Origin: Planctomycetaceae bacterium
GTDB lineage: Bacteria; Planctomycetota; Planctomycetia; Pirellulales; Pirellulaceae
Assembly (NCBI GenBank): GCA_024638965.1
Contig: JAHEJI010000009.1
Location: 1-55,070, forward strand
Direction: 5' to 3'
DNA: 55,070 nt
Shown piece after piece: positions 30,181 through 46,183 of this stretch (positions are counted from its first letter, which is position 1; the number at the start of each line of letters is the position of its first letter). The notes under the pieces are model-generated. The model was not told the origin of the DNA and ran no database searches. It saw nothing but the letters and a program-made list of their open reading frames with translations. The position numbers were made by a program, and so were the translations under genes.

Positions 30181-30362
30181 ATGCGTTCTAGCCGGGATTG
30201 CTCACGTGGACGGAATAAAGTCACGTCTTTGCTTTGCCGGCACACACAAACGCCATCAATTCGACTTGCAAACTGTTTTTGCTTCCAGAAAAGCGGCTGC
30301 AGTTCCGGCAATTAAAACGTTTGCTCGTTGCCGGCATACGACTTGTGAGAAATGCGTTCTAG
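30181..30362. repeat. Region bounded by an 11-bp direct repeat
   Basis: ATGCGTTCTAG occurs at 30181-30191 and again at 30352-30362; the second copy covers the stop codon of the downstream small protein. Inside the interval, GCCGGCA is also repeated (about 30239 and 30330). It is 182 bp long and could be an old small mobile element with its target duplication, but terminal inverted repeats are not evident. Confidence 0.3.
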
Positions 30363-30841: not shown

Positions 30842-30927
30842 AGCTCGTCTCCGACCACGAAACTAATTCTCAGACAAAGAAACAACTGGCTTTCGGTGTT
30901 GCTGCCGTGATTGATCATCTCGCATTT

Positions 30928-31076
30928 CCCAGTCCCAGTCCCAGTCCCAGTCCCAGTCGTAGTCGTAGTCGTAGTCGTAGTCGTCGTCGTACTCGTACTC
31001 GTACTCGTCGTCGTCGTTAAGACTAAGACTAAGACTAAGACTAAGACTAAGACTAAGACTAAGACTAAGACTAAGA
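30928..31076. repeat. Compound hexanucleotide microsatellite
   Basis: On the + strand this is CCCAGT x5 (30928-30957), CGTAGT x4 (30958-30981), CGT x2, CGTACT x3 (30988-31005), CGT x4 (31006-31017) and TAAGAC x9 (31018-31071) with a partial TAAGA. Each block differs from its neighbour by one or two bases, so it looks like slippage expansion of successive point variants. It ends four bases from the lpd stop codon at 31081. The forward-strand frame through it (VPVPVP, VVVV, KTKTKT) is low-complexity and is not taken as a gene. Confidence 0.9.
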
Positions 31077-31080
31077 TTTG

Positions 31081-32463
31081 CTATGTATGGATGGCTCGAC
31101 CATCAACGGCCAAAGCGGCTTCCTGCATGATTTCGGAAAGGGTTGGATGGGCGTGGCAACAACGAGCCAGATCTTCACTTGTGGCCCCAAAATTCATCGC
31201 GACGGCCGCTTCTGAAATCAAGTCGCCTGCTCGCGCCCCAATGGCGTGGACTCCTAGAATTCGATCCGTATTGGCATCCGCAAGAATCTTGATTTTACCT
31301 TCGAAATCGCCGAGCGCGCGAGCTCGACCATTTGCACCGAACGGACAAACGCCTTTTCGATATGAAATGCCCGCTACTTTGAGTTGTTCTTCTGTTTTGC
31401 CAACGGCTGCAATTTCTGGATGCGTGTAGACAATCGCGGGGATCGCGTCGTAGTTGACATGTCCGAAACCGTTCACGATTTGTTCGACACAGGCGACGCC
31501 TTCCTCCGACGCTTTGTGCGCGAGCATCGCTCCGCCGATACAGTCGCCAACTGAATAGATTCCTGGCACCGACGTTTCGAAATGATCGTTGACCTCGATA
31601 AAGCCGCGTTTGTCGACTTTGATTCCAACGTCTTCCAAGCCGATTTTCGACGTGTTCGGCACGCGCCCGGTGCTCATCAAGACGCGATCGCATTTAATGG
31701 TTTCTTCGCCCTTACAAATGACTTCGCAGCCTTTGCCCTTCTTTTTGGCGCTCTCCACCCACATGCTCGTCTTGAAACCTATCCCTTGTTTTTCAAATGA
31801 GCGTCGAGCCAGTCTGGCGATTTCTTGATCCAACCCCGGGAGGACCTGGTCAAGCCCTTCGAGCACAATGACTTCCGAACCCATTCGATTCCAAACCGAG
31901 CCGAGTTCCAAACCAATATAACCACCCCCGATGACCACCAGCTTTTTGGGCGGCTTTTCATAAGCGAGCGCAGTTGTACTGTCTCCGATAAGATTACCGT
32001 CGTATTCAATTCCTGGCAGGTGCATAGGCAAGCTGCCTGTGGCGATAATGATGTGTTCGGCGGCAACGAGGTCACCCTTTGTCACCTGGATTTTTCCTGG
32101 GCTCACCAAGGTCCCACGTCCGACGATCGCGGTTACTTTGTTTCGTTTCAAGAGCATCTTGATGCCGCCGGTGAGTGTGTCGACGACGTTGTCCTTGCGA
32201 GCCATCATGGTGGGAAGATCGACTTCGACGCTTTTCATTTTGATGCCGTGTTCGGCAAAGTGATCACGAGCCTCAACCAGCAAATGGCTCGACTCCAACA
32301 GCGCCTTGCTCGGAATGCAGCCGACTCGAAGGCAAGTGCCGCCAAATTGATCGTTTTCATCGATAATGGCTGTCTTCAACCCAAGCTGTGCCGCCCGAAT
32401 TGCCGCCACGTATCCACCTGGACCACCTCCAAGAACGATCAGATCAAACTGTTGATTTGCCAT
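31081..32463 (-). CDS. lpd: Dihydrolipoyl dehydrogenase
   Basis: A 460-residue FAD pyridine-nucleotide disulfide oxidoreductase. FAD-binding GGGPGGYVAA (12-21), redox-active Cys44 and Cys49 in GGTCLRVGCIPSK, NAD-binding GGGYIGLELGSVW, a second FAD contact SVGDCIGGAMLAH, and the C-terminal active-site HPTLSE are all present. It reoxidises lipoyl groups of the 2-oxoacid dehydrogenase complexes or the glycine cleavage system. The ATG 32461-32463 (MANQQFDLIVLGGG) is preferred to the upstream TTG at 32470-32472. The E1 and E2 genes are not in the window. The TAG stop lies only 4 bp from the hexanucleotide tract, so transcripts ending near here would carry the repeat. Confidence 0.95.
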   Translation of the reverse strand: MANQQFDLIVLGGGPGGYVAAIRAAQLGLKTAIIDENDQFGGTCLRVGCIPSKALLESSHLLVEARDHFAEHGIKMKSVEVDLPTMMARKDNVVDTLTGGIKMLLKRNKVTAIVGRGTLVSPGKIQVTKGDLVAAEHIIIATGSLPMHLPGIEYDGNLIGDSTTALAYEKPPKKLVVIGGGYIGLELGSVWNRMGSEVIVLEGLDQVLPGLDQEIARLARRSFEKQGIGFKTSMWVESAKKKGKGCEVICKGEETIKCDRVLMSTGRVPNTSKIGLEDVGIKVDKRGFIEVNDHFETSVPGIYSVGDCIGGAMLAHKASEEGVACVEQIVNGFGHVNYDAIPAIVYTHPEIAAVGKTEEQLKVAGISYRKGVCPFGANGRARALGDFEGKIKILADANTDRILGVHAIGARAGDLISEAAVAMNFGATSEDLARCCHAHPTLSEIMQEAALAVDGRAIHT

Positions 32464-32689
32464 TTGTTTCAAAGATTTTGAGTACGGAAAAACCTAAAAG
32501 TCGCGGTCGGACTTCGTCTGAATTGTCAGCTTTTGGGACCACTTGGCAATATGTCCTCATCTAAGTTGTGAACGATCTCGACGATTAAACGTAGATCCAA
32601 TAAACGATTCGGCTGTTTTGTGCAAAAGCCCATTGGAACCGTCATCGTTCCTAATAGAATGGAAACTAGTTCGAGAGCTCCTTGTTTTC

Positions 32690-32847: not shown

Positions 32848-34128
32848 ATGTTCAAATTTTTACTCAAATTTGTGTTGGTCGTCGGCTTGTTGACTGCCAT
32901 TGGATATGCAGCTTATCCTCCGATTGCCAAGAAGATCGCCGAACGCAATAAACCGAGATGGCGGACGACGACAATCGAAAACGGGACCATCATCAAAGTC
33001 GTTAATGCGACGGGCACCGTTAAACCGACCAAGTCGGTTCAAGTAGGTTCGTTCGTATCCGGCCCGATTAAGGATCTTTACGTCGAATTCAACCAGGAAG
33101 TAAAACAAGACGAAGTCCTCGCCCGCATTGACCCGCGGTTGTTTGCTGCCAACGTTGCTCGAGACAAAGCGACTTTGGCCACACGCAAAGCCGACGTGTT
33201 ACGGGTTGAGGCGTTACTTCAGCAGGCGCGGAATGACGAAGCAAGAGCGACCGCGTTACGTGAAGAAAACATTGACTTCATCGCTCAGTCAGAGCTTGAT
33301 CAGGTCAAATTCGCACGGCTTTCATTGGAAGCTCAATTAACGATCGCAAACGCCTCGATTGACCAGGCAATGGCAACTCTAACCAATTCGGAAGCCAACC
33401 TGGATTATTGTGAAATTCGGTCCCCGGAAGACGGTATGATCATCGACCGCAAGGTCGAACCGGGGCAAACTCTGGCGGCACAGTTTCAGACGCCTGAACT
33501 GTTCGTCGTCGGCGTGGGGTTGCGTGAAAAGATGCATATCTTTGCCGACGTCGATGAATCGGAAATTGGTCTGATTCGCGAGGCAGCAGAAAACGAACAG
33601 CCGGTGACTTTTACCGTGACCGCTTATCCCGACGATTTGTTTGAAGGCTTGATCGAAGAAGTTCGCTTCAGTTCGGCGGAAACCCAAAATGTCGTGACTT
33701 ATCCCGTTGTCGTAGGTTCACCCAATCCGGATTTGAAACTGTTGCCGGGAATGACCGCTGATCTCTCATTTCAGATTCGTAAAAAAGAAAACGTAATCAA
33801 AATTCCAAAGTCTGCACTGCGGTTTTATCCTCCCGACAAAAAGTATGTTCATCCGGATGATCACGAGATCATTGATGGAACCGACTTTGCATTCTTGATC
33901 GAGGATGACGATGAAACCGACGTGAATACGCAGGCGCCGGCAGCCGAACGCATCAAGGCCAGCAAGAAAGCCAAAAAACGACACGTCTGGAAGCTCGATG
34001 GGGAACTATTACGAGCAGTGGAAGTTCAGGTTGGGCTAAGCGACAATCGTTTTTCGGAATTGATCGTCGGTGAATTGGATGAAGACACCGAGTTGGTCAC
34101 CGGGCAAAAGGCGAAGGGTGAAGAGTGA
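32848..34128 (+). CDS. HlyD/MacA-family periplasmic adaptor subunit
   Basis: A 426-residue membrane-fusion protein. One N-terminal membrane helix (about 5-24) is followed by the barrel-sandwich hybrid half-motif VVNATGTVKPTKSVQVGSFVSG (about 51-72), a coiled-coil hairpin (about 95-185, LATRKADVLRVEALLQQARNDEARA), the second half-motif NLDYCEIRSPEDGMIIDRKVEPGQTL, and a beta-barrel/MP domain with LKLLPGMTADLSFQI. It links an inner-membrane transporter to an outer-membrane channel. The MacB-like permease gene lies 175 bp downstream, but no ATPase gene is nearby. The region about 330-380 is an unusually charged insert (EDDDETDVN...KASKKAKKRH). The stop codon falls in a 7-bp tandem repeat (34113-34140). 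Confidence 0.88.
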   Translation: MFKFLLKFVLVVGLLTAIGYAAYPPIAKKIAERNKPRWRTTTIENGTIIKVVNATGTVKPTKSVQVGSFVSGPIKDLYVEFNQEVKQDEVLARIDPRLFAANVARDKATLATRKADVLRVEALLQQARNDEARATALREENIDFIAQSELDQVKFARLSLEAQLTIANASIDQAMATLTNSEANLDYCEIRSPEDGMIIDRKVEPGQTLAAQFQTPELFVVGVGLREKMHIFADVDESEIGLIREAAENEQPVTFTVTAYPDDLFEGLIEEVRFSSAETQNVVTYPVVVGSPNPDLKLLPGMTADLSFQIRKKENVIKIPKSALRFYPPDKKYVHPDDHEIIDGTDFAFLIEDDDETDVNTQAPAAERIKASKKAKKRHVWKLDGELLRAVEVQVGLSDNRFSELIVGELDEDTELVTGQKAKGEE

Positions 34129-34140
34129 AGGGTGAAGGGT
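34113..34140. repeat. 7-bp tandem repeat overlapping the adaptor gene's stop codon
   Basis: Four units of GAAGGGT (second unit GAAGAGT) run from 34113 to 34140, and the stop TGA at 34126-34128 falls inside. Because 7 is not a multiple of 3, loss or gain of one unit would change the frame at the C-terminus of the adaptor protein and alter its last residues. Confidence 0.75.
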
Positions 34141-34175
34141 GAACCTTGGCCACCCCATAAAAAACGAAGCTGAAT

Positions 34176-34262
34176 GTCATTCTGAGGGAGCTTTAGCGAC
34201 CGAAGAATTTCTCGCAAAAACACGAGAGATCCTTCGCCTCGCTCGACTCGGTTCAGGATGAC
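34176..34262. repeat. Dispersed palindromic repeat, family C, copy 2 (inverted)
   Basis: GTCATTCTGAG at the left and CAGGATGAC at the right are inverted, and the inner AAGAATTTCTCG pairs with CGAGAGATCCTTCG. Reverse-complemented, it follows copy 3 at 46111-46183 block by block (CCTGAACCGAGT, GAAGGATCT, GAGAAAT, GGTCGC). It occupies most of the gap between the adaptor and permease genes. A half-element GCCGTTAAACGAT, like the family A end, lies next to it at about 34270-34282. Confidence 0.7.
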
Positions 34263-34303
34263 TTGGATAGCCGTTAAACGATATCAACCTAAGTGAAATA
34301 CAA

Positions 34304-41336: not shown

Positions 41337-43112
41337 ATGAAGATTTACGTCGCAGCTTTCTTAACTAGCCTCGTGATTGGCCTTGCAGCTGCCTTTATGA
41401 TCTCCGGCTCCGTTGGTCCAGAGCTTGACAAGCTCGCCGGGACTTTGATTAAGCACCCAGGAAAATCGGATGAAGATCCGCAAGCTCCGCACGAACCGAT
41501 TTTGGAACCTGCAGTACTGCTGACGTTTGCGAATGGAGATGTGTTGGCCGAAGATCTAATATACACCTCCTACGCATTGGGGATGAAATCTCGGACGATC
41601 AAAGCAGTCGAGCGATTCGTGAACAAGGTCCTGAATGGAATCGATCCCGGCAAGCCTTCTGCAGCCGCAGTTTTTTTCAGGGAAGGGACGACCAAGCCCA
41701 CTCTCCTGTTTTGCTTCCCGGTAAAACAGCAGGACGAGCTTGAATCGATTCTTAACAAAATCGGCAACGTATATGAAAAAAATTCAGAGAAGAAGATTGC
41801 GATCAAAGGGCTGGGAAGTCTTCGCATTAAACAACGGGGCGACTACGCTTTTATTTCTGGTAACAAAAGTATTTTCAATCGTTTGTCCGATGACGATTCA
41901 TTATTTGGCTCTTTCGCAGCCAAGTTTGATGTTGGATTGAGAATTACTCCGGGTTTAATTCCGGAAGTGTTGAAGGACAGGTTTTTCGCGAGCCTGGAAG
42001 AAAGCGTTTATCGTAATCGCGGCAAATCGGATTCAGGCATAGAAGCTGCTCTGGAATCACTTGAGAAAATAGACAGTCTGATTCGTCACACTAAGCACTT
42101 CACCGTGGGTATAGATATCGATTGCGAAAACAATCGATTTGCGGTCGAAACGGCACTGATTGCGGATGAGGATTCAATCCTTGCGAGTGAGGCGAACAGC
42201 AACCTCGACCTCAAACCGACTCAATTTTCCGGTTTTGATCTCGATGATGCGGGATTCAATCTGAATTGCTGCAGTAATTGGTCGGAAGATAAACGCGACT
42301 TTCAAAAAACGGTCGCAGAGAAGATCAACTCATTAGAATTTGAGACGTTCGGTCAACAGCCTAACTGGGATGAATCCAATTATTGGCTGACAGAACTTGT
42401 TGCTGCGTGCGGTGAATCGCTTGATTCAGAACGAGTCGATTTTGGGGCAACCTCGATCATTAACGACGGGAGAGTCAGTACCGCACTTGGCGTTGGCATA
42501 GAAAACCCAGCTCGACTGGAAACGTTTGTCAAAACCGTTTTTGAAGAATGCCAAAAAAGAAAATCGAAGTTCATTTGCCGACCGCGTTTTGCGACTCACC
42601 GTGATGTCGTGTTTCATCAAATCGAACGCAAATTGTCAGGCAATGAATCCAGCGATACCGTCTACGGCAAATCGATGAAAATCACGATCGGGTTCAATAA
42701 CAAGGCAGCTTACATTGGTATCGGCGAGCGTGCTTTCGAGTTGCTCAAATCGTGCATTGATGCATCCGCGAACGCGAAGTCGACTTCACATGCCCTGATG
42801 AGTGGCGATTTCGAGTTTTCCCCCTGGTTAAGTCTGGTGGCTGACGACACCCCAGACCTGCGTTATGTGAGAAGCTTGATCAAAAATTCCGCCGCAATTG
42901 ATCGCCTTTCGTTTGAATCTCATGCCGTCGAAAATGGCTACACATCACAGATCGAAATCGAAATGGGTTTTGCCCGGATTGCATGGAAATCCATCAAACG
43001 CGCTATTGATCGAAAAATCTACGATTTCGGCGGTTATCGGCCGGTCAGGGTTATCTCGGGCGAAAGCGGACAAATTCCGTTTTCGTCGATGATTCGTGCT
43101 GACGGCAACTAG
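41337..43112 (+). CDS. Large membrane-anchored protein of unknown function
   Basis: A 591-residue protein from ATG 41337; the open frame runs 132 codons further upstream into the end of glgP but without a ribosome-binding site or sensible composition there. One N-terminal helix (about 4-26, KIYVAAFLTSLVIGLAAAFMIS) serves as signal anchor. The rest is soluble with alternating beta strands and helices (for example LTFANGDVLAEDLIY, LLFCFPVKQQDELESILNKI, SLRIKQRGDYAFISGNKS, SGDFEFSPWLSLVADDT), somewhat like the DUF3352-type proteins of planctomycetes, but that resemblance is only general. No catalytic motif is seen. It stands 269 bp after glgP on the same strand. Confidence 0.7.
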   Translation: MKIYVAAFLTSLVIGLAAAFMISGSVGPELDKLAGTLIKHPGKSDEDPQAPHEPILEPAVLLTFANGDVLAEDLIYTSYALGMKSRTIKAVERFVNKVLNGIDPGKPSAAAVFFREGTTKPTLLFCFPVKQQDELESILNKIGNVYEKNSEKKIAIKGLGSLRIKQRGDYAFISGNKSIFNRLSDDDSLFGSFAAKFDVGLRITPGLIPEVLKDRFFASLEESVYRNRGKSDSGIEAALESLEKIDSLIRHTKHFTVGIDIDCENNRFAVETALIADEDSILASEANSNLDLKPTQFSGFDLDDAGFNLNCCSNWSEDKRDFQKTVAEKINSLEFETFGQQPNWDESNYWLTELVAACGESLDSERVDFGATSIINDGRVSTALGVGIENPARLETFVKTVFEECQKRKSKFICRPRFATHRDVVFHQIERKLSGNESSDTVYGKSMKITIGFNNKAAYIGIGERAFELLKSCIDASANAKSTSHALMSGDFEFSPWLSLVADDTPDLRYVRSLIKNSAAIDRLSFESHAVENGYTSQIEIEMGFARIAWKSIKRAIDRKIYDFGGYRPVRVISGESGQIPFSSMIRADGN

Positions 43113-43442
43113 ATCGCGTTTGGTTTAAGTTTGCCGTCTTTTCGTCGGTTTCTCCCGGCAATCAGAGCGCCACGACCGTTATACGTCCGTGCGACACGCA
43201 CTAGATCGACCTGATCCGAGTCGTTAACGAACCTGCATTGTCAGGCCCTGAGACTTGAAATCGGAAGTCCTAATGAAGTATCCTGATCGGATCGCTCGCC
43301 ATCTAGGATCTGCATGCCTATCCAGAATTGGTGCCTTGGCTCCATCGTTCCACTTGTCCCCCGCAACACGTCAGAAGCGAACTGTAAATCACGAAATGTC
43401 ATCAGACAACAAGACTTCAACTCAACCAGTAGCAAAAAGAAG
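43113..43442. other. Intergenic, no defined feature
   Basis: This 330-bp stretch follows the large anchored protein and precedes a small membrane protein on the same strand. Short frames on both strands lack ribosome-binding sites. No terminator with a T run was found; the stop at 43112 is followed by TTTCGTCGG-type sequence only. No tRNA or dispersed repeat was recognised. Confidence 0.4.
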
Positions 43443-46110: not shown

Positions 46111-46183
46111 CATCATCCTGAACCGAGTGGTGCGAGGTGAAGGATCTTTCGTCGATCTGCGAGAAATCCTTTGGTCGCGATGA
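46111..46183. repeat. Dispersed palindromic repeat, family C, copy 3
   Basis: CATCCTGAACCGAGTGGTGCGAGGTGAAGGATCT (first half) and CTGCGAGAAATCCTTTGGTCGCGATGAC (second half) follow the same order as copies 1 and 2. The stem GAAGGATCT-TTCG against CGAGAAATCCTT is imperfect. It lies between the DUF6786-like and DUF1080-ThuA genes. Confidence 0.65.

Follow-up and report, generated by a model that had tools for sequence, protein, structure and literature searches.

The window, i.e., the whole stretch of 55,070 nucleotides analyzed here, comprises positions 1 to 55,070 of contig JAHEJI010000009.1 of Planctomycetaceae bacterium (assembly GCA_024638965.1, referred to as the source genome). Within this window, a tract of tandem hexamers is located between a dihydrolipoamide dehydrogenase-like gene (lpd) and the next ORF (Table 1). 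Four bases (31077-31080) lie between the right end of the tract and the lpd stop codon, in agreement with the distance given by an earlier reading of the DNA letters alone (the sequence-only reading).

Table 1. Features of the tract and its neighboring genes in the window.
Feature	Coordinates	Strand	Evidence
Left arm, 15 TCNTAN-type hexamers	30927..31016	+	Sequence, TRF, arm scan
Right arm, 10 TCNTAN-type units (TCTTAG units on the minus strand)	31017..31076	-	Sequence, TRF (score 118), arm scan
lpd-type dihydrolipoamide dehydrogenase-like gene, start codon uncertain	31081..32472	-	Pyr_redox_2 and Pyr_redox_dim matches
Next ORF, same orientation as lpd, 160 aa	30359..30841	-	No Pfam match at E 0.001

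Parsed as hexamers between 30927 and 31076, the tract consists of 25 units (150 bp) in one unbroken 6-bp phase. From 30927 onward, the units are TCCCAG (five times), TCGTAG (four times), TCGTCG, TCGTAC (three times), TCGTCG (twice), TTAAGA and CTAAGA (nine times). Both the hexamer blocks and the 6-bp phase reported by the sequence-only reading were found in the sequence. CTAAGA is the reverse complement of TCTTAG, and the unit type switches strand at 31016/31017; on the plus strand, the right arm accordingly reads TTAAGA followed by nine CTAAGA units. The tract is composed of two inverted arms and is not one stepwise-diverged direct repeat, i.e., the blocks described earlier stand, whereas their assignment to a single direct repeat does not. 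Both arms abut with zero spacer, and the window copy has no middle part. The arm scan trims the free sixth letter of a unit and hence prints the arm edges as 31015 and 31018. Three adjoining hexamer arrays were identified in the tract by TRF, with a best score of 118 for the TAAGAC block compared to a best score of 70 after dinucleotide shuffling of the window (30 shuffles), so the tract is real and exceeds chance expectation.

Further repeats were observed in the window. A dispersed repeat of approximately 130 bp (30184-30318) is located just 3' of the 160-aa ORF and also occurs in L061 and L027 (81-82% identity) and in L080 of G024, whereas copies of a repeat of approximately 95 bp (43106-43205) were detected in L014 (two), L050 and L012 at 88-95% identity and also in L070 of G024. 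Another short dispersed repeat (34168-34265 and 46113-46178) has copies in L014, L051, L053, L027, L061 and L580. Moreover, a 7-bp tandem repeat of GAAGGGT (34113-34143, 4.4 copies) spans the 3' end of the ORF at 32848-34128.

In order to describe the distribution of the tract, the source genome (5.72 Mb, 292 contigs, 88.6% complete) was searched with blastn using the tract as query, resulting in 77 matches. A second element used as query yielded 82 matches, mostly at the same places but including six additional contigs. With two mismatches at most, TCNTANx4 was found 372 times in forward and 369 times in reverse orientation (reversed control: 4 and 0), and 414 matches of TCNTANx4 compare to none for the permuted core CTNTANx4. 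A locus sample of 41 sequences (435,683 bp), mostly picked by similarity to the tract, contained 48 clusters, and its mononucleotide shuffle gave 3 arm segments; four 20-kb stretches not picked by similarity harbored zero elements. The elements feature a TCNTAN arm, a middle of variable length (absent in the tract) and a reverse-complement arm. Among the 48 clusters, 32 are two-armed and span 66-306 bp, and the TCNTAN arm comes first in 32/32; three of them show the order '><>' and one '><><><'. Based on these results, the tract looks like one copy of a dispersed intergenic foldback family rather than a one-off. The sequence-only reading was supported in part; it had missed the inverted arrangement of two arms, the spread of the family through the genome and its occurrence in other phyla.

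A coding origin was rejected for most copies of the source genome, since they contain stop codons and are located between called genes. Exceptions are a weak ORF call over three two-armed clusters and two one-armed clusters inside a long ORF of L009. A known RNA family was likewise rejected as identity of the elements, since the screening of 10 loci against Rfam returned zero matches at the gathering score. Around the tract, two sub-threshold Rfam matches appeared, one of them over the tract itself (33.5 bits compared to a cut-off of 144).

The composition of the units was determined for 705 units of the source-genome sample. Positions 1, 2, 4 and 5 are occupied by T (678), C (678), T (652) and A (637), respectively, corresponding to 90-96%. 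Position 3 is mixed (T 335, G 264, C 81, A 25), as is position 6 (G 359, A 196, C 132, T 18). Taken together, the data demonstrate the existence of the family, its fixed polarity and a core under constraint, with positions 3 and 6 left free. Furthermore, the order of units was compared with that of shuffled arms for 47 arms with at least six units. Units two apart are identical in excess (247/473, 169 expected), and identity is in deficit for direct neighbors (135/520, 184 expected) and for units three apart (136/426, 154 expected). The excess at a distance of two means that the working period is often 12 bp, e.g., (TCTTAATCTTAG)n.

Elements of the same type were also found beyond the source genome. 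Order-wide and with zero mismatches, TCNTANx4 is present in 74/396 genomes, compared to 10/396 for the permuted CTNTANx4, where the count of 74 consists partly of coding sequences (acidic proteins) and partly of two-armed elements (e.g., L128, L131, L116 and L122). The specificity of the TC..TA core was judged against two control cores. In several genomes, EY-rich acidic proteins of the EYEYEY type mimic arm hexamers in antisense (L109-L115, L117-L121 and L134). Named genomes contributed at least 117 stretches with the TCNTANx4 pattern, and among the 117 stretches listed the TCNTAN arm comes first in 36/38 two-armed clusters. Among the matches listed, such clusters belong to Verrucomicrobia (Chthoniobacter flavus, Akkermansia), Lentisphaerae, Kiritimatiellae, Planctomycetota, Desulfobacteraceae and a few others, and an ORF overlaps 5/34 elements outside the source genome. 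Elements of equal build and polarity are patchily present within the order and also in other phyla. A viral origin was rejected: among the 120 viral stretches listed, two hold a two-armed element, which is weak in one of the two (control pattern: 0/120 listed).

In one lineage of Desulfobacteraceae, copies on separate contigs are 98-99% identical over approximately 100 bp plus little flank, which implies copying. In the same family, the hairpin at 5940-6100 of L195 lies between outer inverted repeats (ACGAAATAACT...AGTTATTTCGT) and is MITE-like. Moreover, in two other genera (G340 and G225), the arms are often (TCGTAC)n arrays around an inner core, GTACTCAGCGAAGCGGTACTCG or variants thereof, and the copies L558, L568 and L574 carry this core on both arms in inverted, REPIN-like arrangement.

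The sister species G024 shares 87-97% identity with the source genome on long aligned stretches. Eleven elements with both flanks on a G024 contig were compared, leaving out L012 (approximately 2 kb in G024). At 10/11 orthologous loci, the element is present in both species with unequal arm lengths; the L014 element, for example, measures 289 bp in the source genome and approximately 40 bp in G024. The length change anticipated by the sequence-only reading is supported at these other elements of the family, whose arms are of strongly unequal length and show a 6-bp and often 12-bp period. No gain or loss of an element was seen at the 10 alignable loci and hence no sign of recent mobility. In ungapped columns, 72/251 sites differ at positions 3 and 6, 51/541 in the core and 255/4865 in the 250-bp flanks, although absolute divergence rates are soft, as flanks are largely coding and the repeat alignment is uncertain. 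The odds ratio of free to core positions is 3.9. Since the core differs more than the flanks, its conservation holds only relative to positions 3 and 6. The elements would also serve as hypervariable orthologous markers between sister species.

The evidence for orthology originates from loci other than lpd, for which G024 gave no match at E 1e-100 or better. Of the genus relatives, 23 gave an lpd match (71-78% identity), and none of these has an arm within 330 nt 3' of the gene (184 nt in one of them). According to the sequence-only reading, absence from relatives together with constancy among reads would make the tract a one-off expansion; the outcome is mixed, with the absence observed for lpd in these 23 relatives and orthologous elements present at 10 other loci of the sister species. 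Across the genus, TCNTANx4 at one mismatch was matched in 11/28 genomes, the source genome included. The pattern is strong in the source genome and G024 and rare in the other members, with 0 to 4 matches in most of them and more in G021. The matches listed for G021 are plain (TCCTAC)n arrays without mixed units, located at the ends of contigs C34 and C39 (L093 and L103).

The differences in arm length, the 6- and 12-bp periodicity and the patchy distribution in the genus would fit a neutral microsatellite, i.e., hairpin-prone seeds grown by slippage in few lineages in the absence of recognition or mobility. Full-length MutS is encoded in the source genome (992 bits), and MutS scored over the cut-off in 26/28 genus genomes, the others being G041 (zero pattern matches) and G024 (71% complete). 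An intact MutS is compatible with slippage, since 6-nt slippage is handled poorly by mismatch repair according to PMC4060949. However, the TC..TA core, the free positions 3 and 6 and the polarity recur across phyla, the permuted core is rare in the 396 genomes, and near-identical dispersed copies occur in one lineage. In particular, the common core argues against plain slippage, and a neutral origin is regarded as unlikely. A mutator phenotype through lost mismatch repair is also unlikely, as the source MutS is intact; this holds less firmly for the 71%-complete sister G024.

The gene context was evaluated for 27/32 two-armed elements by means of a simple codon-based gene caller; five were dropped due to an overlapping ORF call or a missing neighbor. 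The neighboring genes are convergent for 10, tandem for 15 and divergent for 2 elements. Convergent gaps are enriched compared to other gaps (10/27 versus 32/238, p 0.004), and divergent gaps are few (2/27 versus 47/238, p 0.19). At least one gene 3' end faces 25/27 elements. In the source genome, most elements are located at gene ends, plausibly since these are the sites where an element is least harmful.

These positions would also be expected for a functional RNA 3' hairpin or bidirectional terminator, in which pairing of the transcribed arms would terminate or protect the transcripts of lpd and other genes. An RNA 3' structure had been suggested by the sequence-only reading, and a hairpin is indeed predicted for the lpd-sense RNA (-84.7 kcal/mol, z -8.9 versus dinucleotide shuffles; z -4.9 for the tract folded as DNA). 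Moreover, pairing in the window element is better than after shuffling of its units (z -3.1 and -2.8), and the same applies to a few others (L021, L026 and L028). However, the unit order is not generally optimized for folding, with little net effect in a set of 37 elements (mean z -0.22), and the variable positions of the two arms are no more complementary than expected by chance (combined p 0.95 for 33 pairs and 0.94 for 38 pairs). A co-evolving hairpin was rejected on these grounds, and arms unmatched at the variable positions argue against selection for one precise hairpin. Likewise, exchanging the innermost arms among source-genome elements slightly improves the pairing (mean z 0.38, p 0.001); in a mixed-species set, own arms pair better than swapped ones (mean z -0.60), as expected from species differences. 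The stem-loop is seldom accompanied by the T-run of an intrinsic terminator: TTTT occurs within 12 nt at 6/64 element ends, and zero terminator-like sites were listed at the tract. In other phyla, no convergent bias was seen among the 23 elements listed (5 convergent, 12 tandem, 6 divergent; cruder gene caller), and no arm was detected 3' of lpd in the 23 genus relatives. Finally, pairing alone does not explain the TC..TA core and the single polarity: a hairpin needs neither, whereas orientation-dependent recognition of the unit would. A dedicated RNA function is accordingly considered improbable, and the predicted lpd 3' RNA hairpin is likely a by-product.

Traces of mobility were sought in loops, flanks and neighboring genes. 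The loop word GCGTTAGCCCAGTAC, chosen post hoc after inspection of the loops, occurs with up to three mismatches in 5/52 loops (four source elements and one G024 ortholog) compared to 0.13% of random windows. A second loop word is weaker (11/52 loops, 9% background), and most loops in the source genome are unalike. As a sign of target-site duplication, direct words of at least 5 nt were sought in the flanks; they are shared by 2/31 flank pairs (2.8 expected) and hence not in excess, element edges being fuzzy. For Y1 transposases, 37 loci out of 71 listed matches from 10 genomes were scanned (approximately 1.5 kb on each side; two of the 37 originate from one gene region), and an element was located near 1/37.

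Based on genome comparison and unit analysis, a dispersed foldback-type, REPIN-like extragenic family that spread by copying, with arms reshaped by slippage and a unit recognized by an enzyme or protein, is proposed with slightly better than even confidence. Copying at some past time, as in REPINs or foldback transposons, would have scattered the elements, perhaps by means of an enzyme recognizing the hexamer unit. Replication slippage would then lengthen or shorten the arms in 6-bp and often 12-bp steps. The hexamer may represent the unit that is read in orientation-dependent manner by some enzyme or protein, with the site arrays pointing inwards. Any effect of the tract on lpd is putative as well. 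If the proposed reading is right, a degenerate, oriented six-letter code recurs in the extragenic repeats of distant bacteria, which suggests a shared reader or writer. At the least, an apparently lone microsatellite can be a hidden palindrome that belongs to a larger family.

It is quite doubtful, on the other hand, whether TCNTAN is the recognition unit of a widespread machinery, either a transposase-like enzyme acting on inward TC..TA arrays or an enzyme adding units at the 3' ends of a break. An enzyme of the latter type, adding units to both 3' ends, would write the observed polarity directly. Such dedicated machinery would define a new class of interspersed repeats common to PVC bacteria, Desulfobacteraceae and others. 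A strict REPIN mobilized by a RAYT is very improbable, since elements were located near only 1/37 Y1 transposase loci and the source-genome copies, judged by eye, lack a single conserved palindrome, even though the pairs are inverted, intergenic and dispersed and the REP-like inner core of G340 and G225 occurs on both arms, inverted, in some copies.

The nearest known kinds of repeats are REP, REPIN, BIME, TAACTGA and long simple repeats. In the literature on short-unit, palindromic, REPIN and foldback repeats, in which subscription papers were thinly covered, no description of the TCNTAN family was found. Cyanobacterial STRR and the heptamer hairpins of the Nostoc tRNA-Leu intron feature short degenerate units in both halves of a hairpin and slippage-driven change. 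They differ from the TCNTAN elements by their 7-bp units, their location in a group I intron or in direct arrays, and their sequence. Long simple sequence repeats (summarized in PMC4679880 after Mrazek et al. 2007) are likewise tandem, with units of 5-11 nt, and longer than expected. The TCNTAN arrays share these properties, being tandem, longer than chance and variable in length, but go beyond them with two opposed arms, fixed polarity and a core recurring across phyla. TAACTGA heptamers (MacGregor 2015, PMC4679880) are short-unit intergenic repeats in distant bacterial groups, too. They are described in that paper as direct repeats of one fixed unit, mostly just upstream of start codons. The TCNTAN elements do not follow this pattern, since they have inverted arms and two free positions and, in the source genome, are mostly located at gene 3' ends.

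Eukaryotic foldback transposons such as Tetris and Galileo, as described in PMC4079207, resemble the TCNTAN elements in their inverted repeats with internal tandem repeats, their middle domain and the variation between copies. For Galileo, the same paper reports that the internal tandem repeats hold extra transposase binding sites. Inverted repeats of subrepeats around a middle, as in foldback elements or MITEs, were found in the TCNTAN family, the window copy being without middle. In contrast to Tetris and Galileo as described there, the elements are bacterial and small, with 6-bp units, and neither a link to Y1 transposases (37 loci) nor a signal of target-site duplications (31 flank pairs) was found.

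Finally, the intergenic, dispersed setting and inverted pairs predicted to fold back are common to the TCNTAN elements and to REP, REPIN and BIME sequences as covered by PMC3116915 and PMC3733652. The same sources report REPs in PVC bacteria (PMC3116915, Bertels and Rainey 2011; PMC3733652, on GTAG-/CGTC-tagged palindromes). The REP/REPIN unit given there is a palindrome of 20-40 bp, whereas the TCNTAN elements are variable-length hexamer arrays, with two-armed clusters of 66-306 bp, and were not found flanking a Y1 transposase gene. Inspection by eye for a REP palindrome with GTAG/CGTC foot revealed no common core in the source copies and an inner core in G340 and G225. Around the Y1 transposase gene of L281 (1380-2240), GC-rich palindromes of the CCCAGGGC...GCCCTGGG kind were observed, which probably represent a REP-like family of their own. 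The end of a TCNTAN element lies approximately 470 bp upstream of this gene.
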